Made by a program: the position numbers and the translations under genes
The notes under the pieces: generated by a model
Told to the model about the DNA's origin: nothing
Seen by the model: the letters and a program-made list of their open reading frames with translations, nothing else
Database searches by the model: none
Shown here: piece by piece, positions 9,680 through 48,234 of the stretch
How the letters are laid out: each line of letters starts with the position of its first letter
Numbering within the stretch: the first letter of the stretch is position 1
Source: Vitellaria paradoxa
Taxonomy: Eukaryota > Streptophyta > Magnoliopsida > Ericales > Sapotaceae
Assembly: GCA_019916065.1 (NCBI GenBank)
Contig: CM034233.1
Location: 3,971,501 to 4,035,500 of the forward strand
Direction of reading: 5' to 3'
Length of the DNA: 64,000 nt

Positions 9680-11113
9680 TTTAATTAGATGCATATGTGA
9701 AAGGCAGGTTGGAGAAGGGGAGGCTTTCTTAGCCGGGGCTGGAAAAAGGAGAAATCCTAGCCGTTGGTCTTACGTGAAGATGGGCAGTCATGAGGTGTTC
9801 AATTATAACCCTCAGATCAATGCTATTGGCGGTTCAGATTCATGCCCTGATCAGCTCATTCTCGTCCATGTTAGGGTTGCCCAATGACTGGGATTGGTGC
9901 TGGGTGATGTTCACACCCATGGACGTAGCTGCTGCAAGCACTGAGAAGTGCTGCAAAGTCAAACTGGCGCCCAAAATCAGTCGCCCGTGTCAGCAACGCC
10001 GGAAATCAGCCGTTGTCTCAGCACCGACTTTGATTGGCCAGAGTGTGCGCTTAAGACCCGTTTGGTTTGTAAGTAAATTCTAAAAAATTTTATAAATCTC
10101 TGTTAACTTTATATTGTATCAACTTTTTTCTTTCACTGCACACATTACGAACTCTCAATTTATCTCACTCCAAACTCAAGGGTGTTTGGTTTAACCAATC
10201 AAAATTTATCAATTTTTTTTTTACTTTCTTTCAAATAAATTTTCTGACATATCAAATCTTTATACTTTTAACAATATTTTTTGGTCAAAATTTTTTTTCA
10301 AACAAGCACCCCCTGAACCTTGGTTTGGTTTCATTTTAAATTGTTAATCTTTTTCGTTAGTATTTTTTTATGGTTTTTTTACCGAAATTTAATGATGTAA
10401 TTTTTAGATATGTTAATCGTATTCTTTAAAAAAAAAAATTGGGTAACAAAGTAACAAAAAAAAACTAATTTTTTTTATTTTGTATCCAAAGGAACATTAA
10501 TTTTTTAATTTTTTTTTGAATGACATTAACATGATTAGAAGGTGCATCTTTTAAAAAATATAATTAAATTTTGATAAAAAATTATATAAGATGAAAAAAT
10601 TAACAAAATATTTAAAACCTAAAACGTAACCAAACCGAATCTTAGCGCGCCGATTTTTTCTTTGTCTAGTGAGAATAAGAGGTGGGGAGACAGAGATAAT
10701 GTGTGTGTTTTGAGTGAGAGTTATGTCCGTAAAATTTTTTTTGATCATAATAAAATGTCTTATTTTCTTCTGTCAATTTAATTTTGCTCTTGTTAAATTT
10801 ATCATAACATCAGGGTCTCAAGAAGTTTTAAAATAAGATCGGGGACAAGTTGTGCCTAGTGAATAGGACTCGCAAATGGACGGGTTTGGATCAGGTAATA
10901 ATTGGATTGTGTTAAACTCAATTATACTCGTTTAACAATAGATCATTATTGAATGAGTTGGATATGGGTTATATCAAATCCACAACCCAAATTCAACCCA
11001 TTTAAAATTGAACTAATAAAAAAATAGGGATCTCTAGATTTTTAATTTTATTTTTTCATTGTTATGTTTTTAGGAAAGTAAAATCTAATATTTTAGGAAG
11101 TAAAATCTAATAT
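9680..11113. other. Intergenic, with MITE relics and an unassigned coding-like patch
   Basis: 9770-10040 is markedly less AT-rich than its surroundings. From 9780 one frame reads MGSHEVFNYNPQINAIGGSD and continues to a stop near 9886; another frame is open across 9790-10083. I recognise neither. MITE-like relics follow at about 10052-10180 (GACCCGTTTGG end) and 10186-10313 (GGTGTTTGGTTT / CAAACAAGCACC ends). 10860-11010 has a repeat type rich in GGGTTTGG/CAACCC. Confidence 0.4.
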
Positions 11114-11550
11114 AAATTTTTCGAAAAATTGTATCCAAGTCATACTTTGTAATCTTTTAAAGATATTAGTCATACCAAAAAAAAGTATTGCTTTTAAGTC
11201 ATATTAATGTGGAAAATTTTGTATTTAAGTCACACTTTTGAGTGGGTCCCACGAGTTTGTTTTAAATATAATTTATAATATGACTTAAATGCCCTTTTAT
11301 CTATAATTAACTGAGATGAAATTGCCGAGAATTATGGAACCGAGAATCACGTTTTCCGTTTTTTGTTTCATTCCTTATAGATCGCGTGAACAAGCATATA
11401 GTGAGATAAAAAGTCTGTTAAAGGATTATATATGAAGAAATAGATATAGATTACAAGATTTGCAGTGAGATTAACGTCGGTCGAAGGAATACGTACGGAT
11501 TTGGATTACGCATTTGGGTGAGTTTGTGCTGTGAACGATTTCAGTCAGTC

Positions 11551-14500
11551 ATGTCTTCGAATTTGATGCTGCTATGTAAGTTTGGTACAGAGACTTTTGT
11601 AGTCAATTTGAACTGTGAAATGTCATTTTCAGATTTTACGTTAAAGGTGTGTGAGAATTGGTCGAGTTTGAATTTGGAAAATGTATCATTTAGTTACTCA
11701 ATCCATGAACATTCTTCATGTTTTCTGATAAACAATGTTGATTTTCAAAATATGATTATGTTGGCTTGCATGGTTGGTTTGTGTTATATATCGATTGATG
11801 TTTTTTTCGGCGGTTTGAACACAGTACCGATCCAAAACAGTACCGGTACTGTTTCCAGCAGTTCCGGTACTGTTTCTAATAGTGTGCCAATTGGTGATGT
11901 TGGTACTGGTCTGGATTCGTATGATGATTACTGTGATGTTGATGTGTATCGTAGTTCAATTTCAAGCCGTAAGGATAAACCATTGCTGTGTTCTAATTGG
12001 TCGTCATTAATATTGAAAGTGGGACAGGAATTCGTAGGAGGTGTTGATGAGTTTCGTGATGCAATTTGTCGATATGCTACAGAGGTTGGCTTTGAATTTT
12101 TGTATGAGAGGAATAACAAGGATAGAGTCGAAGTTGTTTGTGCAAAAAAGTTCGCTGAATGGTGTCCGTGGTCAATTGTTGCATCGTTATCAAAAGTTAA
12201 TCGTAATTTTTACATAAGGAAATTCAACAATATTCACAGTTGTGGTCCGACAATTATTAGGGATAGGTCTAAGAGGATGAGCAGGAAATCTTTAGGTAAG
12301 TTGATTGTTGATCAAGTAGCATTAAAACCTTCAATGTCGCCGGTCGACGTTATTATATTTTTTAAAAACAACTATGGCATGGAAATTAGCTATGATAAGG
12401 CTTGGAGTGCTTTAGAGAAAGCTAAAGACATGATTTACGGTGAGTATGCTGATTCGTTTAATCACTTAAGTTGTTATGTGAAGGCTGCAATGGATCTTAA
12501 CCCAGGTAGTCATATTGTGTTGGATGTGGATGACGGTATAAACCAGTTTAGACGGTTGTTTGTATCATTTGGGGCCAGTATACGTGGATTCAAATATTGC
12601 AGGCCTATCATTTTTATTGATGGTACTTTCTTGAAGTCACGTTTCAAGGGTATTCTGATGGCAGCTACTGGCAAGGACGCGAATAATGGTATGTTAATGT
12701 TCATAATTTTATATGGTACTGTTTTTATGCGGTACTGTTTTATTATGTGGTACTGTTTTTAGTAAGATGTAGTATCGTATAAACACAGTACCAAATGTAT
12801 CTAGCAATACAAAGAATAGTAGTGTTTTTGTGCGGTACTGTTTTATTATGTGGTACTGTTTTTATGCGGTACTGTTTTATTATGTGGTACTGTTTTTAGT
12901 AAGATGTAGTATCGTATAAACACAGTACCAAATGTATCTAGCAATACAAAGAATGGTAGTGTTTTTGTGCGGTACTGTTTTTGTGTGGTACTGTTTTATT
13001 ATGTGGTACTGTTTTTATGCGGTACTGTTTTATTATGTGGTACTGTTTTTAGTAAGATGTAGTATCGTATAAACACAGTACCAAATGTATCTAGCAATAC
13101 AAAGAATGGTAGTGTTTTTGTACGGTACTGTTTTATTATGTGGTACTGTTTTTATGCGGTACTGTTTTATTATGTGGTACTGTTTTTAGTAAGATGTAGT
13201 ATCGTATAAACACAGTACCAAATGTATCTAGCAATACAAAGAATGGTAGTGTTTTTGTGCGGTACTGTTTTTGTGCGGTACTGTTTTATTATGTGGTGCT
13301 GTTTTTATGCAGTACTGTTTTTAGTAAGATGTAGTATCGTATAAACACAGTACCAAATGTATCTAGCAATACAAAGAATGGTAGTGTTTTTGTGCGGTAC
13401 TGTTTTTGTGCGGTACTGTTTTATTATGTGGTACTGTTTTTTGCGGTACTGTTTTATTATGTGGTACTGCTTTTAGTAAGATGTAGTATCGTATAAACAC
13501 AGTACCAAATGTATCTAGCAATACAAAGAATGGTACTGTTTTTGTGCGGTACTGTTTTATTATGTGGTACTGTTTTTAGTAACATGTAGTATCGTATAAC
13601 ACAGTACCAAATGTATCTGCTATTCAACGACCACAAGTACACCATACAAAGAATGGTACTGTTTTTTTTTGAACTGTTTTAATATGCGGTACTGTTTTGT
13701 AATTCGGTACTGTTTTTATGTTCATCTGCAGGGTTATTCCCATTGGCATTTGCTGTTGTTGATTCAGAGAATTTCGATAATTGGTCTTGGTTCCTATGTC
13801 ATTTGCGTGAGATATTGAACCCCTCTGAAGATTTTACAATTATTTCCGATAGAAATCCTGGATTGATGGAATCTTTGCCAATTAAGTTTCCTACATGTCA
13901 TCACTTTTTCTGTCTACAGCATTTGAAGAACAATTTAAGAGATAAATTTAGTCTTGGTAACAGATCTAATGGATCCCGTGAATACATTGTGAACTTGTTT
14001 TGTCAGTGTGTTATGCTCCCACAGTTGCAGCATTTAAGGAGAAGTTAGATGTTTTGAAGAAGGAAGGGGGTGCAATTGTGGATAACTTTTTGAGTGGATT
14101 GCCTGTGCAAAATTGGACTAATGCGTATTCTTGTAGTAGAAGGTATGGTAAGATGTCTTCAAATGCCATTGAATCTTTTAACTCATGGATTCTTGATGCA
14201 AGAAATATGCCAGTGGTACATTTGGTTGACAAGATAAGGGTTAAATTAATGGAATGGTTTGCCATAAGAAAGCTCGATGCTACAAAGTGGAATGGTGTTC
14301 TATGTCCAAGAATGGAAGAGAAGTTTAATGCACTTGTTGATGCTGGTAGAACATGGACCATCAAGATGTGTTCAGATAGTATTTATGAAGTATTTTCTAA
14401 TCCTTCAACAACTGTTGATTTGGTGAATTGTACATGTTCTTGTTATGGTTGGCAAATTTCTGGTTTTCCATGCTCTCATGCATTTGCTGTTATTGGGAGG

Positions 14501-14779
14501 ATTAACAGACCTTTGAGTGAGTTTGTTGATGAGTACTTTCATGTTGATAATTACAAATTGGCATATGAAGGTATGATTGTTTCAATACCAACAGACATAA
14601 TCCAAGAGTTTGCAGACTGTAATAGTTCAATATTACCTCCAATAACACGGAGACCAGCTGGAAGGCCGAAGAAGCGTAGGATTAGATCAACTGGTGAGCT
14701 TGTACGAAGAATTCGTTGTGGTCGTTGTGGTCGCATGGGCTCTCATAATAAGAAGACTTGCAAAGAGCCGTTGAGTTGA
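11551..14779 (+). CDS. MuDR-type (MULE) transposase, one intron, one frameshift
   Basis: Two exons, 11551-12688 and 13732-14779, join in phase across a GT-AG intron (12689-13731) and give about 728 residues. In order: an N-terminal region of about 85 residues that may be PB1-like; a low-complexity linker; the MuDR DNA-binding region (about 155-235); the MULE transposase core, with the first acidic residue in FIDGTF (about 356), the second in ISDRNPG (about 415) followed by the HHFFCLQHL motif, and the third in NAIESFN (about 523); a SWIM zinc finger (CTCSC..FPCSH, about 612); and a C-terminal zinc knuckle (CGRCGRMGSHNKKTC). The ATG at 11551 is the first in frame. Between about 14000 and 14010 the reading frame changes by one base (a GTTTTGTC context), which breaks the protein. 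It would cut and join the element ends in the nucleus if functional. Confidence 0.88.
12700..13725 (+). repeat. Minisatellite filling the transposase intron
   Basis: About seven imperfect copies of a unit of roughly 140 bp fill the intron. Each contains TAAGATGTAGTATCGTATAA (starts near 12760, 12900, 13050, 13190, 13325, 13476 and 13580), ACACAGTACCAAATG and several GGTACTGTTTT segments in a row. Copy length varies because the GGTACTGTTTTATTATGT submodule itself expands and contracts. The array lies entirely between the splice sites. Confidence 0.9.
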
Positions 14780-14835
14780 ATTGTTTTTTTTTTCTCCCAA
14801 AATTATGCTGTAAAGAAGTCTGTTATTGTTTGTTT

Positions 14836-15715
14836 GTTATAGTACTGTTTTTGAATTAATAATGAGAATGAGTATGTTTCAATCCATCTTGTGATAGTTT
14901 TTTATTCAGCGATATTCATTTTTAATGTTGGTATTGAGAATGACAGCGGTATAAAATAGTACCGGTACTGTTTTTATTAATACTGGTACTGTTTGTAATA
15001 GTGTATCAATTTTATATTTGCAGACAGTACCGTTGTCATTCTTATATTTAAAGGACATAAAATTTGTTGGTGACAATAGCTGTAAGTGTTTTCACAAGCA
15101 AAGAGCACCATTAAACAAAGAAGAGAATCACACATACAATGAAATGACCGACAGTACCGCATGTGTGACAGTACCACATGTCTGCGGTACTCTTTTTTTT
15201 TAGGATGCATGCTCGTTCAAAAACAGTACCGCATGACTCTATCATGCAAACATCACATGTAAACACAAAATAGTTCACATATCAAACGAATAACCGACAG
15301 TACCGCATGTGTGACAGTACAACATGTCTGCGGTACTGTTTTTTTTTTAGGATGCATGCTCGTTTAAAAACAGTACCACGTGACTCTATCATGTAAACAT
15401 CACATTTAAACACAAAAATGGCTCACATATCAAACGAATGAGAGACAGTATCGCATGTGTGACAGTACCACATGTCTGCGGTATTGTTTTTTTTTTAGGA
15501 TGCATGCTCGTTCAAAAACAGTACCACGTGACTCTATCATGCAAACATCACATTTAAACAAAAAATGGCTCACATATCAAACGAATGAGAGACAGTACCG
15601 CATATGTTGGTATTGAGATACTTCATACAAACAGTACCGGTATAAAACAATACCGGTACTGTTAATATTAATACCGGTACTGTTTCGAATAGAGTATCAA
15701 TCAGCATTATTTTGC
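14836..15715. repeat. ACAGTACC motif array downstream of the transposase
   Basis: After the transposase stop there are scattered GGTACTGT motifs, then three to four tandem units of about 148 bp starting near 15147, 15295, 15445 and 15591. Each unit carries GACAGTACCGCATGTGTGAC, a second ACAGTACC, a GCGGTACTGTTTTTT segment, GGATGCATGCTCGTT and a further ACAGTACC. The array ends with paired inverted motifs near 15635-15690. Nearly the same unit recurs at 20310-21240. Confidence 0.88.
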
Positions 15716-15935
15716 AGCACTATCAACATAACAAGAATCAACATCCCAAGAGTTATCATACAAAAATCGCAAAAACCATGACTATTTATGTTGCACAAAT
15801 AGTACTATTAACTGGACATTGACTATTTGTATTAGTATAAACTGTATCATTCAATTTATAGGAAAAGAATGTTGAATATACAAGTATTTTGTTAAAAAAG
15901 AAACAGAGTGTGCACTAATACTGCTTTAATTACAA

Positions 15936-18900
15936 TCACAATGTTTGTACATCACTAATGGACAGAAATTGTGTTAGCATCTTTGCTCTGTAAGCTTGTA
16001 CAGCTTCTTCTGAAAGCATCGGTTCAAGTGGCTCGTCATTTGATATGCATTGCATTACGTAGCACACCATTGGCCCACAGTCAACACTGCACACAAGATG
16101 TTATAGATTGTAAGAATTTAGTTAGAGGTGTTCAACAATTTGTATGAATAAAAAAGGGTGTGGCTTACGTTGTAGATCCTTGTTGTGGGCAATTTGCTGC
16201 AGAAACAATTGGGTATTCGAATTCCATGCTGGTATGTTCAATATTTTTTGTTATTGGATCATTGAGGTATTGGTCTTTAAGTTTCAATTCCACATACTCT
16301 TTCTGATACAATATGACAAATGTGGAGACAGTATGAGTTTTAATAAACAGCACCGGTACTGTTGTAAATAGTAGAAAAGAGTACCAATGAAATTATGTAT
16401 AAAATTTACATACAGAATCTTACCACTTTCCTTGCATCCTCAAGATACAAATCTTTGGAATTTGCTCTACGTGGTTTCATGGAATTATAATGTGTCCATG
16501 TCCACGTGTCTCTATCCAATACCAAAAGGGTCCAATGGTTGGGATCAGCAGGAATTCTCGTTCCACTTGTATTCAAAGGGAATACAAGTAGTCTGTATGT
16601 ATCAGATAGTTTCAGCTTTTGATCAATTTGAGTGTCTCGAGCTGCATGATGTCTCTCAAATACCACAAATGTCTGCAACAAGAAAAAATACATGTTGTCA
16701 AATACCATATGCTTGCGGTACTGTTTCCCCCAAGATGCATGCTCTCGTAAAAACAGTACCGAATGATTGTAGTATGCCAACAGTAATATGAAAATAAAAA
16801 AGAAGTCTCATATCCATCGCATGGCTGACAGTACCATATGGATGACAGTACCACATGTATGCAGTACTGTTTTTATGTATAAGATGAATGCTATTTGAAA
16901 AATAGTACCAAACGATAACAGTATGCAAACAGTACCAGATGAATGCTAGTTGAAAAACAGTACCAAACGATTATAGTATGCAAACAGTGCCACGTAACTA
17001 AAAAAGAAGTCATATCCATGCCATTTGCTGACAGTACCACATGGTCGAGAGTACCACATATATGCTGTACTATTTCTGAAAACATTTATGCTCTAGAAAA
17101 AGAGTACCGAATATATATAGTATGCAAAAAGCACAATTAACCACAGAAAGAGATCACAAATCTTACCCAACACAAACTGCTGAAGTATAAGCATCTTTTG
17201 GGGAAAGTGCTGTTGATTGATTCATGTTGTGTTGATTCTAGATAGCGTGCATGACAGTCAATTAGCTGGGCAAATATTGTGATTAGTAAATATCAGATTA
17301 ATTTGTTGAATTTAAGAAATGTCAACATATTTTATTAATTCTGTAGAAATATAAGTTAATCATATATGCCTACCATGTTTGATATACTCTCATTTGCTAT
17401 GAGGTTGTAGATATCTTCAATGGTGATCATGCAGAGTGGTTCATTTGGTACAGCCCAAACAGTTGCACTGTGTTGTGTGTATACAGTGAGCAGTGAGATG
17501 TCAACAAGATCAACCAAAAAAAAAAAAACAACAACAACAATATGAGTTAAGTTTGAAATGTTTATGTTAACAGTACCAGATAAAGGAATGACAGTACCAA
17601 TTATTGTAAAAAATAGAGAACAGTACCAGATGATAGCAAGTAATTTTTTTTATAATTGACAAGTAATAAAAAGAAAGAGTTAAATACTGTCTTACGCTTT
17701 CCCCCTCATTATCAATAAGTTTTAAGATCCGTTCCTTTTCTATGTCCGATAGATGTGTGTTTTGCTGAAAAGTTGAAATAATCTGCTTAAGCGAAGGTTG
17801 CTTGGGCTCAGTTTGATGTGTAGACAGTTGTAGAAGATCAATGTCTATAACGTCAGATTCTATATCTTTCGTGACAACTGCCGCAGTATCTGCCTTTTGT
17901 TTTTTGGCAACCTTCTTTTTACCACTGTATGTGAACTCAGGATCTCTTTTCTTTTGGCGTGTTTTGTCCTTGAGCCTTTTGTACATTGAAGGTGGTTCGT
18001 TTGCAGCTGGAGTTTGTTTTTCATTGGTATCCGATTTCTTTGGCCTTCTAGTTGCTGCATGTTTCTGCGTCACCTGGTGGACGCTAGATTCGACAAGTTC
18101 AGACCTTAATAATTCAACAACTGCATTCACATTATCAAGTTCTTCCTTCAGGTTTGTGTTTTGCAGGTTGAGATTTTCATTGTCAATGAACAACTTTGTC
18201 AGAATTTCATCTTTTTCTGCCATTTGCTTTTCCAATTTAGCAATTTTATCATCTTTTTCTGCCATTTGCTTCTCCAATTCAGCAATTTTATCATCTTTTT
18301 CCTTGACTTGTTGCTCCAGCTCTTCTATTTGTTCACGGTTCAAAATTGATAAAACTGAAGCAATTGGATCATTACTTTGCTGAACTGGTACTGTTTCTGC
18401 TGATGCAGCCTGTCTTGCCTCTTGTTCTGGTTCCTCTTGTTCTGGTGCCTCTTGTTCTGGGACTTTTTCTGCTATTTTGTCTTGTAAGGTGCCTTCATCA
18501 GATTCTGGTACTGTTTCTGGAAGACTTTCAGCTATGGCAGATGGAACAGTACCAGATTGATCGAGTTCAGGAGTACAAGACACCTCTTGTTTTCGCTCGC
18601 TTTCAGTTGTCTTGTTCAAATGCACTATGTTTGTCTTCAGTTTTTGAAGAATGTCAGAAATTACTAATTCATCATCACTGGTTTTTTCTGACGCAATGAT
18701 GTATTCTTCTGTTTCTGTCCTTTCATCATCATAATTATCATTATCATCATCATCATCATCATTATCATTATCATCATTATCATCATGATATTGTTGTTGT
18801 CCATCCTCCTCCTCGTCATCCTCCTCATCATCATCATCAAGATCAGGTACAATTACCTGATATTTTGTTCATCAATTATATAATTCATTAGTATGTCCAT

Positions 18901-20223
18901 GAATACATTGTTGAATCTAGAATGATTTTATTTATCAGATGCAAACAGTATCATGAAACACAAAAAAGAGGTGACAAATACAAAATAGCTGACAGTACCA
19001 CATGGATGACAGTACTAAATGTATGCGGTACTGTTTTTTTAAGGATGCATGCTCGTTCAAAAACAGTACCGAATGTATATAGCATTCAAACAGTATCATG
19101 AAACACAACAAAACAGTACCGCATACATGAAAAAAAGAATAGGTCACAAATTCAAAGAATAACTGACAGTACCACATGTCTGCGATACTGTTTTGTTAAG
19201 AATGCATGCTCTTTGAAACACAGTACCTAATGCGCGGATGACAGTACCACATGTATGCGGTACTGTTTTTTGTAAAAGATGAAGATGAATCTATTGGAAA
19301 ATAGTACCGAATATTCTTAGCATGCAAACATGATTTATTTTATCATAAATAATACCTGATTTTATTCAACTTTTGAGATTTATTTTTTCAATGCATTGGA
19401 CAATGGCTTGAGATCCCAGACTAGACATCTAAGTGTTGCACTCTTCTGTACTTGTTGGACTAGAGTGGTGTGCTCACAGATCCAGTACTGCATCATTTAT
19501 AGGGCTGATTAGTTGAATGAAGTTCATAAGACAGTACCAACATATAATATAGAATATGATATGAAAAGGTTACCGGTAACATCATGACACAGCCTGCAAC
19601 ACCTTTGTTCCTAGAATCTGAGCACAAACTGTTCTCCAAGAATTCCAGTATATGTGCACTCCAATTGTATTGGCGGATTTGATCCAAATTTTCAACCAAT
19701 GTTGTGTAGTGCCACGACAATGAATGTCCTTTGTTAGGGACAAACAACGTTGCCAAACAGAACAGTGTCAAAGTCTTGCAACATCTTCTCTGCCAATGCG
19801 TGTTTGCTCTGCAGCAGCCTGCCGCAAAGCATCAGATATGTTCTGTTTCTTAATTCGTCGCAACCCAGAGAATCTACGAGAGACGAATTCAGTGCCTGGC
19901 CTTGCGATTTTTTTGACACTGTCTATCAGTTGTTCACCATCCTCTATTGCAAACATTGTTTGCAACTCTTTCTCTCTGATGCGAAGCTTTATTCCACCTA
20001 GGTTGAAAGATTTGGACTGTGGGTCAAATGTTTTGATGATTGCTTCCACATCAACATCGCTTTTCCTCGAGTAATCTTTGTTAATTTCACAGTTTAAAAT
20101 AGTGAGGATGAGCTTCCAAAATGGAGAATGTTTGAGATATACATGGTGTGCTTTTGTCAAGTTGATGGTTTCAACTTCATTAATGACTGAGATTAGGTTC
20201 GAACGGTACTGGATGTTCACCAT
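15936..20223 (-). CDS. ULP1-like (C48) SUMO-protease-family gene of the MULE, multi-exon, frame-broken
   Basis: Exons readable on the minus strand, high to low coordinate: 20223-19574, 19487 to about 19371, 18856-17696, 17467-17374, 17275-17167, 16672-16424, 16302-16169 and 16086-15936. The N-terminal part (TKAHHVYLKHSPFWKLI, then ATLFVPNKGHSLSWHYTTL) resembles plant transposon-associated ULP proteins. The 18856-17696 exon encodes an acidic D/E/N tract, a P/E/Q-rich linker and heptad-like coiled coil (EKDDKIAELEKQMAEKDD). The catalytic region follows: HWTLLVLD with the His, HYNSM where the usual Asp is Asn, CPQQ with the oxyanion Gln, and DCGPMVCYVMQC with the Cys. The ATG at 20223 is a plausible start; an upstream exon is possible. 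Breaks: a one-base frame change near 19780, in-frame stops near 19371, and a splice-phase mismatch at 17696/17467. It would cleave SUMO-like conjugates if functional. Confidence 0.82.
16330..17140. repeat. ACAGTACC-rich introns of the ULP1-like gene
   Basis: Introns between the catalytic-domain exons carry dispersed motif copies, densest at 16715-17110. Many are spaced by the ATGCATGCTC / ATAAGATGAATGC segments of the 148-bp unit in diverged form. The exons themselves are nearly free of the motif here. Confidence 0.75.
18860..19345. repeat. ACAGTACC-rich intron upstream of the acidic exon
   Basis: Diverged 148-bp-type units with about a dozen ACAGTACC/GGTACTGT copies between 18945 and 19310. 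They sit in the intron before the acidic/coiled-coil exon. GGATGCATGCTCGTT and GAATGCATGCTC segments mark the same ancestry as the 15.1 kb and 20.4 kb arrays. Confidence 0.78.
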
Positions 20224-20304
20224 GTTTGATTTTGTATGAGCGTGATAGCAATACCTGTATTTTCGTAACATTTGTTTTCTGTTAGAGATAAAATGCAATA
20301 TCAT

Positions 20305-21445
20305 CTAGATACAGTACCACTTCTATGACAGTACCGCATGTCTGACAGTACCACACATGCGGTACTGTCTCACAAAATATGCTTGCTCGCAAAAACAGTA
20401 CCGAATGATTATATCATGCAAAGAGCACCATTAAACAAAGAAGAGAATCACACATACAATGAAATGACCGACAGTACCGCATGTGTGATAGTACTATAGT
20501 CAGCGGTACTGTTTTTTTTAGGATGCATGCTCGTTCAAAAACAGTACCGCATGACTCTATCATGCAAACATCACATGTAAACACAAAAATAGTTTCACAT
20601 ATCAAACGATATGAGAGACAGTACCACATGTGTGACAGTACCACATGTCTGCGGTACTGTTTTTTTTTTAGGATGCATGCTCGTTCAAAAACAGTACCAC
20701 GTGACTCTATCATGCAAACATCACGTGTAAACACAAAAATGGCTCACATATCAAACGAATAACCGACAGTACCGCATGTGTGACAGTACCACATGTCTGC
20801 GGTACTGTTTTTTTTTTAGGATGCATGCTCGTTCAAAACAGTACCACGTGACTCTATCATGCAAACATCACATTTAAACATAAAATGGCTCACATATCAA
20901 ACGAATGAGAGACAGTACCGCATGTGTGACAGTACCACATGTCTGCGGTACTGTTTTTTTTTAGGATGCATGCTCGTTCAAAAACAGTACCACGTGACTC
21001 TATCATGCAAACATCACATGTAAACACAAAAATGGCTCACATATCAAACGAATGAGAGACAGTACCGCATGTGTGACAGTACCATAGTCCTGCGGTACTG
21101 TTTTTTTTTTTTAGGATGCATGCTCGTTCAAAAACAGTACCGCATGACTCTATCATGCAAACATCACATTTAAACACAAAATGGTTGCAAATATCAAACG
21201 AATGACGGACAGTACCGCATGTGTGACAGTACCACATGTATGTGGTAATGTTTCATATTAGGCTATTGTAAAAATAGCAACGATTATACGTTTTCGGAGA
21301 AACTAAATATATAATACAGTACCACAAAACCTGTTATTACAAAGATAATCGAAAACCCTAAACAGTACCACACAATAAATATTCAAACCCTCGATATGTG
21401 TTTTGAAGAAAACCCTAAAGAGTACCTTAATCGAATATAGTACCT
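20305..21445. repeat. 148-bp tandem array upstream of the ULP1-like gene
   Basis: Six units with starts near 20469, 20617, 20764, 20910, 21058 and 21207 (period 146-149 bp), each with four or more ACAGTACC/GGTACTGT motifs in fixed positions and orientations. The segment from about 20415 is nearly identical to 15105 onward, including non-motif sequence (AGAGCACCATTAAACAAAG), so the two arrays share a recent origin. The last motifs, near 21315-21445, become sparse and lead into the likely promoter and right end of the element. Confidence 0.9.
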
Positions 21446-21782
21446 GTTGATTGCGAAGCACTGTAATGTGTGGATTTGCTCGGCGAAAAGTTAGGGATCG
21501 ATTGAGGCTTGATTTGGAAGAAGTTTTGATTAGTTTTCAGATGATTTGTGAATAAGTTGGAAAGTCGCGGAACGTTTCCGATAAAACAGGGAGGTTTTCA
21601 AATAAACTGGTTTTGTGAGTGAAAAGATGCGCGAGGTCTTTTTTGTTTTTTCGGTGCCATATGACTTATTTACAAATAATTTTTAAGGGTATGACCTTAA
21701 ACCCTTAATAGTCTATAAATTATGACCGGCCTCCAAAACCCCTAAATTTTTTAATTGTTATGTTTTTAGCAAGTAAAATATA

Positions 21783-22110
21783 GGCTTCGTTTGGAGCCTC
21801 AAAAAATCCAAAAAACTCAAAAGCTGACACGGTCTGTGTCGCTAACACATCTGTCAAAAAATTTGAAATGCCGTTAGAACGCACATTTTAGTTACCAAAA
21901 TTCAAAAAAAAGTGATCTGACACATGTACAAAAAATACACAAAACTTCAAAATTTTTTAAAATCTTCTACTAAAATTTTGACACGTATCACTTTATATAC
22001 TTTTTAACAATTTTATATCAAATCAAATAAACATTCAACAATCATTACACAATAATTTTAAAATAGACTTTTGAAAACTTTTGGATTTGATTGGGACTTC
22101 AAACGCACCC
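21783..22110. mobile_element. Tourist-like MITE, 328 bp
   Basis: The ends GGCTTCGTTTGGAGCC and GGACTTCAAACGCACCC form the TIR, with ATA on both sides (21780-21782, 22111-22113). The sequence on either side reads continuously with the GTTTTTAGGAAAGTAAAATC / AATATTTTAGGAA sequence found left of the MULE near 11065-11100, so the MITE interrupts an older local repeat. Confidence 0.65.
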
Positions 22111-23918
22111 ATAATATTTTAGGAAAGTAATCAAGTTCTTAAAATTTGATAAAGAAAAAGAGGAGAATCTGAATGAACAAATCTTGGAAGCTTAATACAT
22201 CCAAACCTTAAACTCAATACATACAAAAATTTTTGTTCAACTGATAAAAGCCTAAACGTATTACTTCCGAAATCCAATACGGTGATCAATAATCTCACAC
22301 GATTCAGTGGATATTGTAAGAGTCACAAATTAAGCTCTGTGAATGTAAAACGGAGAAGAGATCAACGAATTTCGTATTGCACTTCAGATTCAGAATAGGG
22401 CACTCAGACTGATACAAATCCGTTCGCCGAAACTTGCGAAGACGGTGGTCAACTCTGTGTTACCCTTCAGAATTAAGAAGAAAGACAATCATTGCTTGCA
22501 ACCTTTGGATTTAAGAAGCAAACAATCCGAGAGCAACGATGATAAGTGAGATCGAAGGCAACGGCTAAGTCTGTCTGTCGTCAGAGACAAGAGAGCATTG
22601 ATTTAATCGAGTGCAACGGGTTTGTATTACAACCCAACTAAACCCACTCAATACTAGGGGCGTCTAAAACTTTTGAAATTTTTAAAATTTTAAACACATT
22701 TTGTATTCTTTATATTTCATGGAAACTTTTATAATTTATATATATCTAAGTATCTAACAATTTTTTTACGAATTTTAATAATTTTTTTACAAACCCAGTA
22801 ATATTTTACAAATCTTATAATTAATCTACAGTTTTCAAAAATTTTTCGACGATTTTCAATAAATTCTAAAACAAAACCGTTCTGACGGATCAAAAATATC
22901 ATTCCAACAGTTTTTCTTTTTGAAAAGTTGACGCAAAAGTCAAAAAATTTGAGCTATTCATCTCTTAAAAACGTCGTTTAGTAGCTACACGCCAAATGTC
23001 GAGAAATTATCTAAATTATATTTTTCATAATTTTTGTTATTTTTTGCCGCTTCAAATGAAATAGATGAGTGATTTCCACAATAAAGAAAACCAGAAAGTA
23101 ATAATAGTAGGAAAGAAAATGATGATGCAACCTGGCTTTTCACATGTAGGGAGTTTTTAGAGTAATACAAAGTGAGATAAATGAGATAAATTATGAATTC
23201 TTAATTCATGCAGTGAGATAAAATAAATAATTTTTAAAAATTTTTATAATTTTTTTTTTTTAGGTTTTAGCAAAGGTAAACTGCATGCATTAACTTGATG
23301 GTATCAAATGTGTCAATACAAGATAAATGGTTATGTATATATTCAGAGTTGGCATTGCCTCAAATACACCTGATTTAATTTCAATAGTTGCAAAATTTAC
23401 CAACCGAGGCAAATTAGACCTTTTCCCAGAAAAGAATGCAGTTAATTTTGTTTCTGAACAGATGATGCTGATAGCACCTGCAATCTACTATTTCCAATAC
23501 GTGCAGAATAAACTAGTTCTATAAGCAACAAAATGGATTCATTCATATGCTGTGCCAAAACACAATGGTATGATCTTATTTCTACCAATCATGGGCTCGT
23601 TTGGCACGACATAAAATGCTAAAAAATTTTAAAAATTATTTATTTTTTATTACACTATACGAATTACAATCTTACAAATTATCCCAAATTATCTTATTTT
23701 ATCTCTTTTTTGTTACTCTAAAATAACAAGGGTTATTCTTAACGAGCCTCTTCATAAACACAACTGGGTCATTTTCTCTTTTTTTCTTCTTTTTTCTTCC
23801 CCCCCCCCTCCAAAAAACAATTGAAGACCATAAAATGTAGGATCATAAGGCTAACAAGAAGGGTCAAAGTATGTACAATTGGAAGTTCAGTAAACTACAA
23901 ATGAACCTCCAAATCCAC
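22111..23918. other. Intergenic, with MITE relics
   Basis: 22300-22650 is moderately GC-rich and non-repetitive within the window but has no recognisable ORF. About 22656-23060 matches, block by block, the larger MITE at 50130-50571 (GACAAACTC-like, CAAAAGTCAAAAA and ATCTAAAT..CAT blocks in the same order). About 23589-23760 is a MITE-like copy with a GGCTCGTTTGGCACG start. The last 100 bp probably hold the 3' UTR of the receptor kinase. Confidence 0.45.
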
Positions 23919-25988
23919 CTAAAAATGGGTCCTAGGAGTCAACCATGGTGTGTCATTGATGATAGAAATCTCATCTCCAACAAAATTCAATATCTCTTCA
24001 GAGCCCCCAGGATGCACAGATCGAATGCTCACCGTTGGTTTCCTTGCAGGCAGAATGGGGAGCGGTGCTTCTCCCTTAATCATCCTCGCAGCTTCCTTCA
24101 CAGTTGGCCTCTTGTCATGGTTTGGGTGCACACAAGCAAGCCCAACAACAAGCATTCTCTCCATCTCGACCTTGTTGAACTTCCCTTTCAACTTAGAATC
24201 AGCAGCCTCAATTAGTATCCCCTTTCCCCACAACCCCCAAATTCTATCAGCAAGCACAGCTCCATCATCATCTACAGGTTTTCCCGAAGCCACCTCTAAC
24301 AACACCACACCAAAGCTATAAAACATCAGTTTTCACAGTTGGAACCCAATAACGTACTCAGGAGCAAGATATCCCATTGTTCCAGCTGGTATGGTAGCTT
24401 CTCTAGTCACAGAACTATGTTCATAAACCTCAGCTAATCCAAAATCTCCAAGTTTGGCGTTGAACTCACAATCAAGCATTATATTGCAAGTCTTCACATC
24501 CCTATGAATTATCTGTCTCTCACATTCTTCATGTAGATACACCAGAGCTGAAGCAACACCAAGAACTATGCTCAGTCTTTTCTCCCAAGTGAGAAAAACA
24601 CTCAAGGGATTACTGCTTTTGTGGAGGATATTGTCGAGGCTTCCATTGGACATGTACTCGTAGACCAAGACTAATTCGTTCCTCTCACAGCACCACCCTT
24701 GGAGCTGAACCAAGTGCTTGTGCCTTAAACAACCCACCATTGTAGCAAACTCAGTGGTGAATTGATTGCACAGAGGACCAGTTTGATTAACCCTAGTGAA
24801 CCTTTTCACTGCCACTGCCCCCCAAGAGGGGAGGGACCCTTCATAAACAGTTGCTGACCCTCCCTCACCTATGATTCTCCTTTGGTTGAATCCCTTGGTG
24901 GCTGATTTTATCTCTGAGAGTGAGAGTCTTTTGGGTACTTTGTTCCCTTGAAATCTGCAAATTTGGCCTTCACTGGGTCCTCCTCCTCTCCTGCTAAGTC
25001 TTCTGCTCCTTATCATACAAAGAATGATTATGACAACCATTGCAGATACAGAGATGATAAATGCAGCCAAACCCCCCAAGCCAAGAGCTAATTCACCCAC
25101 TCTTTTGTCCATGGAATGGTAATCAAATCGACCACTGTGTTCCTCCGATGAATCCTCCGGGGAGCACACAACACAGTCCCCTCCTTCTACAGACCTTATT
25201 GAAGAGAGGAGTCTGGAAGTTTTGAATCTCCACCCTTCAACAAGGTGTGTTGCCGAGCCTCTAGTGTTGGAAGCTGAGAAACCAACGTGCATGAACTCCT
25301 TGAATTGCTGCGAAAGATCAGTCTGAACAACAAGAAGAGGCCTCTGAGGCTTGACCAGTGAGTTATACCCAACCCACACCTTGATCATCTTCTCTAAATC
25401 TCTGTACTCAATCCAAGCTGTCATTTGCCTCCCACCCTTCAAATCGACCCCCATTGAAAGGGCATCAACAGAAACAAAAGACACAATTGTGTTAACATCA
25501 ATTCCAATGTGGTTGTCGTTGATGTCCCCGAGAGATGGATCAAAACTCGTATCGAATTCAATAGCAACAAACGAGTCTTGCACATCTTCTGCTGGGAGAC
25601 CCATGTAGCCATTGTAGAAGCTGACTGAGTCTGTGTTAGAAGTGATGATGAATGCGAAGCCATCTCCGAATGGGCAGAAAGAGGAAGGGATGATTCTGAA
25701 GGAGAACCGGCAAGAGAAGGAAAGGGTTGTGTTGGTTGAATGATCAAGAAATCGAATTGGGAAGACGTAGAAAGCTCGTCCGACCCCTGAAGAAGAAGAT
25801 GATGAAGGAGGAGGATAAGGGTTAGAAGAGAAACAGTCGAGCCCGTGGGTGAGAGTAATGGAGTTGTTTCTGAAATAAGCGTCGCCGAAGAGGGTGACGT
25901 TGTTTGCAGGCGAGAAAGGGGAAGAGTGAGATGGGAAGATGAAGAAAAAGAAGAGAACCCAGAAGAGTTGGATTGAAGAGGAACGCAT
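23919..25988 (-). CDS. L-type lectin-domain receptor-like kinase, with a compensated frameshift
   Basis: One intronless reading frame of about 689 codons on the minus strand, interrupted by a single TGA at 24333-24335. Signal peptide (about 1-23), legume-lectin domain (about 25-265; FGDGFAF and VAIEFDT blocks), one membrane segment (LAAFIISVSAMVVIIILCMI), then a kinase with GEGGSATVYEG loop, VAVKRF lysine, HRDVKTCN and DFGLAE. The usual role is a plasma-membrane receptor for extracellular ligands. Around the stop, about eight codons read GFQL-stop-KLMFYSFG where the family has a PTVKTDVYSFG-type sequence. One missing C near 24342 and one extra T near 24320 explain this exactly and restore frame. 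It is either a genuine pseudogene lesion or two homopolymer assembly errors. The rest is uninterrupted. Confidence 0.85.
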
Positions 25989-26010: not shown

Positions 26011-28649
26011 ATGTATGGAGATTATGATATCTGGGTGGAGGCAAATCTTGAGGAAATGGAGGTTTTACAGAGGTTTCTTGGAATGGAGTTGGAGAGAGTG
26101 GCATTGAAGTGTTTGATCTTTCGTACCAATGAAATGATTGGTTTGATATCGTTTCTGTTTCTTCTACAGCTGGGGGAAAATCTGGGTTTGATAGATTCCA
26201 AAACCAAGATTTTAGAAATTTTGGAATATGCAGAAGAATCAGAGTGGCAGAGAAGATGAACTGAATCGAAGATTGCAGTTAAGAGCAGTTAGGGCCGGGC
26301 CACCACGAACACTGACAGGGTTGGGCCAGACCGGTAGGCAATCAAAGAATCATATTTGTCTTCTTGAGGCTCGACTGTATTGTCGACAGATCAGCATCTA
26401 AAGGTAAAATGGGCATAGACCGCGCTTACGGGTCCACCAAAATTATAAGTGATTGGTGGTTTGAGGGTTAGAGGGGCTGCTGTGCGCTGCTGAAGGGTTG
26501 TTAAAAAAAAAAAATTGAACAACTCGAGACGAACCAATCCGATAATTTTGGTTTGGATTGGTCCGGTTTTATATGATTTTTGGTTTGATTTTGGGTTAAA
26601 AATTAAAAAATTAATATTTTTGTTTCAGTTCTCAGCTTAGTAGCTACTCAACTCTAGCCAACTTGAAATCGAATCGAAAATAACCTAATTTGAATCAACA
26701 CAAACTAATATAATATAAATATAAATATTATATAATATTATGTAAGATTTTAAAACTAAATAATATATTGTATATAATATATATATAATCCTAAAATTTA
26801 GACTAAATTGACCTCAATCGAAATAGACCCAATCTAACTTCAAATGGCCTAAACCAAAAACCGAATCAAAGCAACCTAATATTTTTTGTTCGATTCGGTT
26901 CAGGTCCAAATTTTAGAAATTAAAAAAATTGATTCAATTCTGGGTTAAATATCAACATAAATCGAACCGACAAATGCATACCTCTAACTGTAAAGACTGA
27001 AATATATAGTTGTATGGTCTTGATTTGATTACATTTTAATGAGATATGACTTTTCATATTTTGTATTGATTGTCTTTCAATTAGATTTCTTTTAACTTCT
27101 ATTTTTATATTAAAATTCATTTTAACTAAATTAAAGCAAGACCATTAGATAGTTATACGAAAAGCAAGACCGTTCATTCATACATTTCAGTCTTTGCAAT
27201 GCATTTTTGCATTGCAACCTCCTAGAACCTGTCGTTTGAAGCTTCAAAAATTGTAATAAAATGTAACTTGGCAATTTTTTTGGTATTTTGAAAGTAATCA
27301 ATAAATCACAAAAAGATAAAAATGAATAGTAAAAAAAATTCGTTCGAACAGATTTTAATAGAGTATTATGTTCGAATAGTCAAATCCAACGAATTATGGA
27401 CAAAAATTTTTTGAAATTTTGTGCAGAATTTTTTAAAGATTCATAGAGATTTATTAGTATTTATAGAGAATATTATAAAAATTGGTAGATATTTATAAAA
27501 ATCTAGTTAGCTCAAAATTTATCGAGATTTTTAAGTATTTTAAAGCTCCAAACGGATTGTGCAATTAAACCTCCATTAATATCTTGGCCTTTTATTTAAA
27601 ATAATAATAATAACAAATCATAAAGAAATATATTTATTTAATAAATATGAAAGCATAATAATAAAATAATCCTATTCCTGGTAATAGATGAATTGCACAA
27701 CTCCTCTTTTGACTTTCTAAATCAAAGCTCCTCAATATCAAAACTTCAAATGAAGATAAAAAAGATTCGCAGAGCGATCATGGTGGCTTTCCACTTTTCC
27801 TCATCTTAATTCAAAAGAAAGTGACTGCTGTGTCGCAAGCAACGTTACGAGGAGGGGTAGGAGGATCCCCTCAGCAAAAAGTGTTGTTTGTTTGTTTGTT
27901 TTTTTTTTTTTATAAACTCATTTATTAACAAAATCAAGATATATTATTAGATCAGCAATTCGGTATCAATCTATTCCATCAGGATGGACCCGTAACTGTA
28001 GAGCCCAATTTCGCGTGTTCCCTTCTCATCTAGAAATACATCAATATTGGTACTGTTTGGAGTTATATATATAGTATATATAATTTATAAATTTCTATAA
28101 ATATAATTATGAGACTGTAAAATTTAAATTTTTACTCAGTGCACAAATTACGAAACGTTAACTTTTACAAATTTATACAACTCCAACCATATCTATTATG
28201 TTGATCCAAACTAAAATCGACTTCCAAATTTTTGGCCCATTTGTTCACTTTATTTGTGGTGTGCTAAGAAAATTATTTGATACATCTTGTAAGAGAAGAG
28301 GCAAGCGTCATGCTTGTGATAGATAGATACATACATGCATATATGTGCGTTATATTTATGTGTCCATGTATAAAAAGTTGGTTTACAAAAAAAAACTCTA
28401 ACTTTTAATAATTTTTTTAACTTTTGCACAAAAAATTTTTTTTTCTAACTTGTTTTAATTGTTATATTTTTAATTTTTTTAATTTTTTCTAACTTTTATC
28501 ATTTTTTATCAATATTCTTCAACTTTTTGAAGAATACAAAACACCCAAAATTTTTAAAGTTAACAAAAGTTTTTTTTTTTAAACAAATATGGACACTTCA
28601 AACATAACCTAAATGACGAAGGACAAGAATGTTAACAAAGACCATTTTT

Positions 28650-30769: not shown

Positions 30770-31996
30770 TCAATACGGCATGATGTGAGTGGTCTTAGTC
30801 TCATAACTCGCCAAACACGACTTTGAGTTGACTCGGAGCACCTTGACCAGATCACCGCACATCTTCCTCACAAGCGGAGTACAATCGCTCTGCATCACCA
30901 ACAGCACCTTCGTCAAACCGTTGCTCTTCATCATCGCCTCCTGAGCCGTCGGATCACGGCACATGCAGCATACGTTCCAGAGCACCACAACGCCGTGTTC
31001 CGTCGCCGTGCTAGACGTCTTCATCAATCTCTTAACGATCGCCGCCACGCAGGTCTCATCTTCACCTATCGCCGCCCGTCCCTCCGCGCATTTACATAGC
31101 AGCTCTAGCAGCTTCAGATACTTCTCGATCACCGATGGATCTGTGTCCGGACCAGAGAGGATTTTCCCCACAGTTCTTACGATTCCAAACTGGAGTAATT
31201 CCTTTTTGACCGGTCTTGAGGTGGATACAGCGATCAGGGATGATAAACCGGCTTCTACCGCCGTCGGATCGGTCTCCGAGGCGACTAGACGGTACAATTC
31301 GTACAATAACCCTTTCTTTTCGGTAATTGCTCGTTGAGACTCGGAATCAAATGCAATTGATTCCAAAACCCTTGCTGATTCGATTCTCGAACTCAAACGA
31401 CCGCTTTGAAGAACCGAGACGTATGGAGATAGACAATCTCGATTGCTTTTGAACATGAATCTGTGCAGTTGCTCTTTGACTCCATTTTGAGCCATAATCA
31501 AATTCAAAATTGACACAATCGATTCGAATACTTCGATTTCATGGACATTGCTGAGAACTCCAGCGATCCTCGGAACGAAGCCTTCGATACTCGCGACAAA
31601 CTGGCGGTTTTCATCGGAGTACTTGGCGAAATCGGCGATCTGCGAGAGAGAATTCAAGCGATTCTCGGTAGATTTTTCCATGTTCATGATCGAGTCCAGT
31701 ATTTGCTGCTTTGAGAATCTAAGAGGCATAGAGGGATGCGATCGGGGGGAAAGGGAGTGGGACCAGACGTCGATGAGGCGGCGTAGGTTGAGATTGGGGA
31801 CGAAATCGGTAGAGGGGAGGACCTGCATGGTGGCGGGGCAGGTGTTGTGGCCGGTATCGAGCCAGGCTTGGATGCTGGAGCGGTCGTAGGTGACGCCGGT
31901 ACAGAGGCTGACCGGAGACTTCATGACGTCCATCGAGATCGGGCATTTGAAGAAGCTAGGCACCTTAACGTATAGCTGGCCTTTATCCCTCACCAT
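30770..31996 (-). CDS. Plant U-box (PUB) E3 ubiquitin ligase with ARM-type repeats
   Basis: Intronless, 408 residues. The start chosen is the ATG at 31996 (MVRDKG). An in-frame ATG lies upstream at 32194, but the extra 66 residues are encoded partly by a CT microsatellite and end at the point where PUB proteins of this group begin. The U-box occupies about residues 10-85 (VPSFFKCPISMDVMKSPV, then TGVTYDRSSIQAWLD, NTCPATMQ, PNLNLRRLI). The remainder is alpha-helical and ARM-repeat-like. Length and the VPSFFKCPIS opening fit the short U-box/ARM group around Arabidopsis PUB27-PUB29; I do not assign an exact orthologue. Known members ubiquitinate defence and stress regulators together with an E2. 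No frame break is seen. Confidence 0.92.
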   Translation of the reverse strand: MVRDKGQLYVKVPSFFKCPISMDVMKSPVSLCTGVTYDRSSIQAWLDTGHNTCPATMQVLPSTDFVPNLNLRRLIDVWSHSLSPRSHPSMPLRFSKQQILDSIMNMEKSTENRLNSLSQIADFAKYSDENRQFVASIEGFVPRIAGVLSNVHEIEVFESIVSILNLIMAQNGVKEQLHRFMFKSNRDCLSPYVSVLQSGRLSSRIESARVLESIAFDSESQRAITEKKGLLYELYRLVASETDPTAVEAGLSSLIAVSTSRPVKKELLQFGIVRTVGKILSGPDTDPSVIEKYLKLLELLCKCAEGRAAIGEDETCVAAIVKRLMKTSSTATEHGVVVLWNVCCMCRDPTAQEAMMKSNGLTKVLLVMQSDCTPLVRKMCGDLVKVLRVNSKSCLASYETKTTHIMPY

Positions 31997-32011
31997 TTTG
32001 TGCTGTAGATA

Positions 32012-39915: not shown

Positions 39916-40015
39916 NNNNNNNNNNNNNNNNNNNNNNNNNNNNNNNNNNNNNNNNNNNNNNNNNNNNNNNNNNNNNNNNNNNNNNNNNNNNNNNNNNNNN
40001 NNNNNNNNNNNNNNN
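39916..40015. other. Assembly gap, 100 N
   Basis: Exactly 100 undetermined bases, the conventional placeholder for a gap of unknown size. Features on the two sides may not be truly adjacent. Confidence 0.98.
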
Positions 40016-47500: not shown

Positions 47501-48234
47501 GACTCCTGTCCATCATGCTTGCCATCTTCGCCGCGGTCGCTCTCATTTCCATCTTCGCCCTTCACAGCGGCAATGAGAGAAGACTTTTCTGTGGTCTAGC
47601 TGCTACCATCTTTTCCATTTTAATGTACGGTTCACCTCTTTCAATCATGGTAAGATCTTATTGATGTATCTCCCTAGATTATGAGTCGTAGTCATCGTTT
47701 GTGTATTATTAAACCAAATGTGTTACGTAGGAGCTTAACATGGTCAAGGGAACAAATGTGTTGATTAATTATTCAAGTTCGTTTATTCACAAGAGTACTA
47801 ATTAATCGCGCAGAGTATGGTGATCAGGACGAAAAGTGTGGAGTTCATGCCATTTTCTTGTCACTGTTCGTGTTCTTGTGTGGCACTTCCTGGTTCATTT
47901 ACGGGCTGCTAGAAATGGACCCTTTCATCGCTGTAAGTATGGTACTGGTACTGCATCTTCGAAAAATGTTATTGAAATCGGACATGAACTTTGCTTATTA
48001 ACTGCTAGCTTCATCCGGCATTTCCTTCAGTCAAGAAGATCCTTAATTTGGTCGAATGTTAATTGTGCTGTGAAGGTGCCAAATGGAATTGGATGTGGGT
48101 TGGGAGCAATTCAGCTGATCTTGTATGCAATTTACCGAGACAAGAAGGGTGAAACCAAGGAAACTGCGGAGGAATCGATGGAGATGGGGCTGCAGCCCCA
48201 TCTGGAGAAGCGGTCCCAAAATGGACATGTCTAG
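44503..48234 (+). CDS. SWEET sugar transporter (MtN3/saliva), clade of SWEET1, with one-base deletions
   Basis: Six exons: 44503-44545, 44644-44680, 45549-45642, 47369-47649, 47814-47932 and 48076-48234. Exon 2 is 37 bp, as usual in SWEET genes. The translation shows the first MtN3 repeat (MGGAGAARFVIGVFGNANG, LLLFLAPSITFKRI), then SMINAAGAAIESVYVLIF and LFCGLAATIFSILMYGSPLS, KSVEFMPF, and VPNGIGCGLGAIQLILYAIY, ending ..RSQNGHV. Seven-helix plasma-membrane transporters of this type carry glucose or related sugars down their gradient. Compared with the family, single bases are missing near 45573, 45602, 47391, 47395 and 47855, each within a short homopolymer. As written the gene cannot be read through. 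Intron 3 is long because of a transposon. Confidence 0.88.
45003..45268. mobile_element. MITE in intron 2 of the SWEET gene
   Basis: GGTGACATTTAGTTTAC at the left and AAATTAAATGAGCCC at the right mark an imperfect inverted pair. The interior (TTTTGTTTTATGTGTTAAAA, CTCAAAACGAGAAAA) repeats partly within itself and matches 37310-37590. Confidence 0.45.
45426..45553 (+). repeat. Tandem duplication of the intron 2 acceptor
   Basis: About 66 bp ending in CTCCTGGCAGGATTA occur twice (ending near 45485 and 45553). The second copy is the true acceptor because exon 3 coding follows it; the first, with its AG at 45479-45480, is a decoy. Confidence 0.75.
45921..47015. mobile_element. TIR element of 1.1 kb in intron 3 of the SWEET gene, with internal tandem repeats
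   Basis: The left end GTTATGTTTGGCACGTGG is mirrored at the right (GTTATGTTTGGTACGTGAG on the minus strand). Similarity continues inward for about 45 bp (ATGGAATGGAATTA). Between the ends, five to six copies of a unit of roughly 120-140 bp carry AAGGGTAAAATNGTCATTTT (near 46164, 46281, 46402, 46544, 46673 and 46730). A clear target duplication was not identified. No coding capacity. Confidence 0.7.
47051..47206. mobile_element. MITE-like copy in intron 3 of the SWEET gene
   Basis: GGGAGCATTTGGATG at the left and CAAACGGCTCTTA at the right. The interior has the TTTAATTAAAAGAAATTG block. It lies about 160 bp before exon 4. Confidence 0.45.

Follow-up and report, generated by a model that had tools for sequence, protein, structure and literature searches.

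In a 64,000-nucleotide stretch of the Vitellaria paradoxa genome (assembly GCA_019916065.1, contig CM034233.1, positions 3,971,501 to 4,035,500; hereafter the window, numbered from its first letter) we identified a Mutator-like element (MULE) at 11122–21742 whose non-coding DNA is dense in one short motif, ACAGTACCR. We propose, with a probability of roughly 0.6, that the element carries an anti-silencing system like that of the VANC proteins of VANDAL transposons, in which the motif is read by the element's second protein, predicted to join a domain related to the plant mobile domain (PMD) and DUF1985 to an Ulp1 domain. Under this proposal the second protein would bind ACAGTACCR clusters in the non-coding DNA of its own family and free that DNA of methylation or of a different silencing mark; the transposon genes would thereby stay expressed, both in cis and, for members of the family, in trans. 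The transposase would work at the ends of the element via GTCATA repeats, and tandem duplication would spread and homogenise the ACAGTACCR sites.

The 8-mer ACAGTACC, which is GGTACTGT on the opposite strand, has 106 matches in the window when both strands are counted. The MULE holds 105 of these (58 on one strand and 47 on the other) and the remaining 53 kb a single copy, at 28049. Dinucleotide shuffling of 11123–21743 (200 shuffles) produced a mean of 0.38 and a maximum of three copies, and one-mismatch forms number 32 in total in the same interval. The observation from which this analysis started, made in a preliminary description of the sequence, was that a whole MULE is saturated with one motif, and it is confirmed by these counts as real and strong. 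Some details of that description have to be revised. The exact palindrome AACAGTACCGGTACTGTT, given as a recurring form, occurs only once, at 11836, together with five relatives having up to three mismatches, and the motif does not reach close to the ends as had been stated: its span is 11821 to 21362, which leaves 699 motif-free bp at the left end of the MULE and 373 at the right.

Within the MULE the copies are concentrated outside the exons. According to gene models drawn by eye, 98 of 105 are non-coding (16.9 per kb) and seven exonic (1.45 per kb), the latter divided between exon 1 of the transposase gene (four) and the acidic exon of the second, ULP-like gene (three); six of the seven stand in the frame that encodes TV. 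The transposase intron is densest (35 copies, 33.5 per kb), followed by the DNA upstream of the ULP-like gene (26 copies, 24.2 per kb), three stretches of ULP-like intron named D (7 copies), C (3) and B (8), all at 13.5–16.8 per kb, the intergenic DNA between the two genes (15 copies, 12.9 per kb) and the 3′ end (two copies, 4.5 per kb). Exon-dominated stretches hold 0–3.5 copies per kb.

The unit had been described as 8 bp long. The core 8-mer stands, but the base that follows it is a purine in 104 of the 105 copies (A 53, G 51, T 1, C 0), and the full unit is therefore the 9-bp ACAGTACCR. Clustering of the copies by flank identity, with the three motif-adjacent bases excluded, yielded 22 contexts at a threshold of 80%, 15 at 70%, 10 at 65% and 1 at 60%. 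The +1 purine is present in all 22 context representatives, 21 of which have A or T at +3, and the upstream side is A-rich, such that an extended unit can be written approximately as AAACAGTACCRNW around the core. When all 124 words with at least eight copies in the MULE were ranked in this way, ACAGTACC came top with its 22 contexts, words overlapping it heavily had 14–19 and the others seven or fewer. Plain CpG decay was ruled out as the origin of the +1 A/G choice because ACAGTACCA occurs 53 times and the mirror product ACAGTACTG twice.

The contexts bear most directly on the rival explanation that survives best, namely an ordinary minisatellite in which slippage and local duplication have spread a functionless word through non-coding DNA, with exons left nearly free through constraint. 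Many copies of ACAGTACC do lie within tandem arrays, the motif and its spacer show the same degree of conservation in the young arrays, and all contexts fuse to one cluster when flank identity is relaxed to 60%. A minisatellite would nevertheless have to yield the separate contexts seen at 80% and 70% for a word whose fellow words in the same arrays stop at seven, keep a purine at +1 across those contexts, and place seven copies within the exons of two genes. We therefore regard it as unlikely; with 22 unrelated flank contexts, the motif is not one minisatellite.

Conservation within the element was assessed in diverged blocks aligned with the motif masked. Ten block pairs, each of which outscored its own 60 shuffles and was pooled, have a mismatch of 12.9% in motif columns versus 21.1% in spacer; six pairs favour the motif (D-U1, D-U2, D-G1, B-U1, U1-U2 and U1-G1). 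In a masked BLAST comparison the intergenic-upstream pair, the only one that yielded motif columns, has 4.8% mismatch in the motif versus 8.9% in the spacer, and none of 60 control words was as low. A figure from ordinary BLAST (5.5% versus 26.8%, with 0 of 264 control words as low) was discarded as evidence because the motif itself seeds such alignments, and the masked versions were used in its place. Overall, we judge the evidence for selection on ACAGTACCR to be moderate, its main support being the unrelated contexts.

The two genes of the MULE are convergent. The transposase gene, on the plus strand, consists of exon 1 (11551–12688), which encodes an N-terminal part, a motif-bearing linker, DBD_Tnp_Mut and the start of the MULE domain; an intron (12689–13731) with the densest motif arrays, in units of about 16–18 and 135–153 bp; and exon 2 (13732–14779), which encodes the remainder of the MULE domain and SWIM and has no motif copy. 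All three domains score above their cut-offs (MULE 67.4 bits, DBD_Tnp_Mut 42.1, SWIM 37.4). The linker is itself partly written by the motif (11821–11873, reading NTVP...GTVS...GTVS), and short repeated peptides are also found in the linkers of some relatives, for example P0011 and P0004. Of 104 relatives the top-scoring one, from Tripterygium, is 45% identical over the length of the transposase and none exceeds 56%, so a near-identical transposase is not in the searched database. Matches from Brassicaceae are 23–32% identical, none of these being identified as a VANDAL transposase, and the viral contigs searched with the transposase alignment gave 50 pattern matches with no relative among them. 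Between the two genes (14780–15938) lie 148-bp tandem units at 15143–15607.

At the ends of the MULE a different repeat is found. Three copies of GTCATA lie within the first 83 bp (at 11139, 11169 and 11198, spanning 11139–11203 on the plus strand) and three more, inverted, within the last 83 bp (at 21660, 21690 and 21721, spanning 21660–21726 on the minus strand), at intervals of 29–31 bp; the remainder of the MULE contains five others and the window outside it 11. We consider these end copies candidate transposase sites. The terminal repeats are otherwise degenerate, the match between the two ends being imperfect and gapped, and by its sequence the element is a MULE with weak terminal inverted repeats and a predicted ULP1-like protein. 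A 9-bp direct repeat, TAAATTTTT, at 11113–11121 and 21743–21751 fits a MULE target-site duplication and would set the element at 11122–21742; this is suggestive and not stronger, because the flanks are AT-rich and the window contains 27 occurrences of this word, counting its complement. Further short words repeat on both sides outside the MULE, TTGTTATGTTTTTAG at 11059 and 21755 and AATATTTTAGGAA at 11087 and 22113, the left-hand set occupying 11059–11099 and the right-hand set (21755–22125) being apparently split by an insert of about 330 bp (21780–22112). The MULE may thus sit between duplicated flanks.

A second alternative is that ACAGTACC is a binding site of the transposase, which would then read the whole MULE and not only its ends. 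The preliminary description had named the transposase as a candidate reader beside the ULP1-like protein; it too is encoded by the element, and its DBD_Tnp_Mut domain and SWIM zinc finger count in its favour. A transposase acting at the ends is expected to bind there, yet both terminal stretches lack the motif and bear the inverted GTCATA triplet instead, which makes this alternative distinctly unlikely. We infer two cis systems, with GTCATA at the ends serving the transposase and ACAGTACCR in the interior serving another purpose. As the motif is lacking just where the separate triplet sits, the transposase is the less likely of the two readers, and of the pair first named it is the ULP1-like protein that we retain as the likely one.

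Reading by a host factor is less probable still. SPL-type transcription factors read a GTAC core, which is contained in the 8-mer, and a site of this kind, exploited by the element for its expression, would suit the richness of the ULP-like upstream region in copies; however, the conserved 9-bp unit exceeds the GTAC core, and introns and intergenic DNA are as motif-dense as the upstream region. Action in RNA, for example as a splicing or U-rich intron signal, is very improbable: the sense strand of introns does carry mostly GGTACTGT (28 of 35 copies in the transposase intron, 12689–13731, and, in the ULP-like gene, 15 of 18 across stretches D, C and B, 16681–17698 and 18869–19344; binomial P 0.0005 and 0.0075, for copies that are not independent), but the bias is the same ahead of the start codon of that gene (20 of 26 copies, 20227–21300), copies are common between genes too, and plants prefer U-rich introns, so that the orientation of the motif is explicable without a role in RNA.

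The preferred reader, the second protein, is encoded on the minus strand by the ULP-like gene, which runs from 20223 to 15939 with exon boundaries placed by eye from reading frame and GT-AG signals. Exons E1 (19574–20223) and E2 (19383–19487) encode the predicted domain of the PMD/DUF1985 superfamily; in E2 a stop is met before a clear donor, and its 3′ junction is ambiguous. Exon E3 (17690–18856) encodes an acidic, coiled-coil region with tandem peptides, its coding repeats being of 42 bp (2.3–2.7 copies) and 15 bp (three copies). Exons E4 (17374–17466) and E5 (17167–17265) are likewise predicted by eye, and E6 (16424–16672), E7 (16171–16302) and E8 (15939–16085) encode the Ulp1 catalytic domain. 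Of the motif-bearing intron stretches, B occupies 18869–19344 and D, which is mostly the E6–E5 intron, 16681–17200 with a 34-bp overlap with E5. The upstream region (20227–21300) contains 150-bp tandem units at 20379–21253. The Ulp1 part matches Peptidase_C48 at 41.7 bits (cut-off 20.7). Its pattern (16409–16500 and 15939–16100) is His, Asn, Cys, where the usual Ulp1 pattern is His, Asp, Cys, and the Asn is common to both Rhododendron relatives described below.

The nature of the N-terminal domain was approached through these relatives. A search with the whole protein scored the 7994 candidates sharing most words with it and kept two, the Rhododendron proteins P0001 and P0002, which have identical domain order; the acidic stretch probably flooded this search, and relatives may have been missed. 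The N-terminus alone (residues 1–252) had no homolog among 1244 candidates. When trimmed, the N-terminal domains of P0001 and P0002 match PMD with E values of 8.9e-7 and 1.3e-5, below the curated cut-off, and DUF1985 with E values of 0.0014 and 0.00019, in neither case reaching the 35.1-bit cut-off; scanned at full length (E up to 1), the same proteins gave PMD and not DUF1985. True PMD proteins behave unevenly towards DUF1985, the one from Hibiscus touching it (0.002) and the one from Dendrobium having no match. DUF287 appears in none of the domain listings. Aligned by hhalign, the family of the second protein and two true PMDs reach a probability of 94.2 (E 1.1e-7, 160 columns; 94.1 in reverse), with controls against Ulp1 at 0.2 and 0.3. 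On these profile comparisons the N-terminal domain is predicted to be homologous to PMD though below the Pfam membership score, and the PMD matches, the DUF1985 matches of the relatives and the hhalign result together suggest that it sits between PMD and DUF1985. Among the 25 papers listed of 36 in the literature collection that mention either DUF1985 or the plant mobile domain, none mentions the two together; a paper with both would have ranked at the top. An AlphaFold model of P0001, made with P0002 and pieces from the window, had a mean predicted local distance difference test score of 39 and was not used, and solved structures searched by sequence with P0001 gave weak matches only, the best (E 0.009) to the acidic stretch.

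The anatomy assembled here, a transposase beside a protein with an N-terminal PMD/DUF1985-related domain, an acidic coiled-coil and Ulp1, would fit a VANC-type system and suggests that the second protein works like VANC. The likeness to VANC targets noted at the outset is sustained: the motif is short, dense, mostly non-coding and partly tandem, and it lies in a MULE with degenerate ends. That the lineage is unrelated to VANC, as had also been supposed, is not plainly so, because of the Ulp1 domain, the relatives' DUF1985 matches (below cut-off) and the conservation in eudicots of Ulp1-carrying VANC genes, as stated in a 2026 review (PMC13317346).

Several results weigh against a VANC-like system. 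The N-terminal PMD (PF10536) match of the window protein, at 26.6 bits (E 4.4e-6), is below the Pfam cut-off of 34.9, and DUF1985 gave no match in it at E up to 10. Both genes have apparent one-base frameshifts, near 14010 in transposase exon 2 and near 19775 in ULP-like exon E1; these may reflect either a decayed copy or sequence errors, and in a frameshifted copy the motif reader would be the protein of an intact one. The family is known here from one copy only. Both orientations of ACAGTACC occur (58/47), whereas VANC21 sites are co-oriented within arrays, and no 10.5-bp helical phasing of the sites was found when looked for in the MULE. In the young arrays, with gaps scored as mismatches, motif and spacer differ little, at 10.1% versus 9.4% mismatch in nine units of the 148-bp type and 6.3% versus 5.6% in seven intron units. 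Four of the ten masked pairs lack a motif advantage, D-B and B-U2 being about level and B-G1 and U2-G1 reversed. Finally, the likeness of ACAGTACC to known VANC and MAIN/MAIL1 motifs is not significant (combined P about 0.06), and we make no claim from it.

Elsewhere in the window we observed a minus-strand gene for a lectin-type receptor kinase (24333–25988, Lectin_legB and Pkinase), which resumes in another frame at 23919–24332; on the same strand, a U-box protein with ARM repeats (30773–31999); a weak match to a SWEET sugar transporter domain (47824–48231, 21.0 bits against a cut-off of 23.7); and an assembly gap of 100 N, outside the MULE, at 39916–40015.

If the second protein does read ACAGTACCR, it would bring to plant sequence-specific anti-silencing a motif and a reader architecture that are both new, tie the VANC domain to MAIN and MAIL1, which act in host silencing, and supply a defined DNA target with which transposon-encoded PMD-like proteins could be tested as silencing counteragents. 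It might also offer another sequence-addressed laboratory route to the removal of DNA methylation. A wider and more doubtful suggestion is that PMD and DUF1985 form one superfamily that reads short DNA motifs, with which plant hosts silence transposons (MAIN/MAIL1) and transposons escape silencing (VANC and the PMD/DUF1985-Ulp1 protein described here). Were this true, a transposon PMD-like protein would be paired with a predicted DNA site, and a published guess would become directly testable, namely that PMDs captured by MULEs function in anti-silencing, which is offered as speculation in PMC5418596 and similarly suggested in PMC8616336.

The element was compared with several known systems. 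MAIN and MAIL1 have a role in transposon silencing, and many genes dependent on them carry a short promoter motif, CATGCAGTTT (PMC7156037, PMC9899485), of which a search of the MULE found no copy. Like these proteins and MULE-borne PMDs, the second protein has a predicted homologous N-terminal domain, and like MAIN and MAIL1 it would be associated with a short motif; unlike in these proteins, its domain is below the PMD cut-off and is joined to Ulp1, not to a transposase. With the Rhododendron proteins P0001 and P0002, compared as proteins only, it shares the order of PMD/DUF1985-like domain, acidic coiled-coil and Ulp1 and the His-Asn-Cys pattern, although identity is just 26–29% in the best local alignments.

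The VANDAL systems offer a parallel in target DNA. VANC21 binds YAGTATTAY in VANDAL21 non-coding DNA, where its sites have spread via tandem repeats and are co-oriented within arrays, and the targets of VANC6 in VANDAL6 have other motifs, AGTTGTCC or AGTTGTAC (PMC5735166). DUF1985 is drawn there as a domain of VANC proteins, whose variable regions hold tandem peptides (PMC5735166), and VANDALs have degenerate terminal inverted repeats (PMC10398659). The element described here resembles VANDAL21/VANC21 and VANDAL6/VANC6 in being a MULE that encodes a second protein beside its transposase, in a short motif that is dense in introns and intergenic DNA and spread in tandem, and in a second protein that combines conserved domains with a variable region of tandem peptides. 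It differs in its motif, in the use of both orientations, in the presence of Ulp1, in an N-terminal domain that by Pfam scores resembles PMD more than DUF1985, and in having no motif within about 700 and 370 bp of its ends, whereas in VANDAL21 and VANDAL6 the motif is also found in terminal non-coding DNA. Ulp1 is strongly conserved in eudicots among Ulp1-carrying VANC genes, and such genes (KIU) act on motif-bearing relatives (PMC13317346). Unlike KAONASHI and KIU, the window's own protein has no detected DUF1985; like these Ulp1-carrying VANC genes of MULEs without terminal inverted repeats, compared by description only, our element has Ulp1 on its second protein, degenerate ends and motif-rich non-coding DNA.

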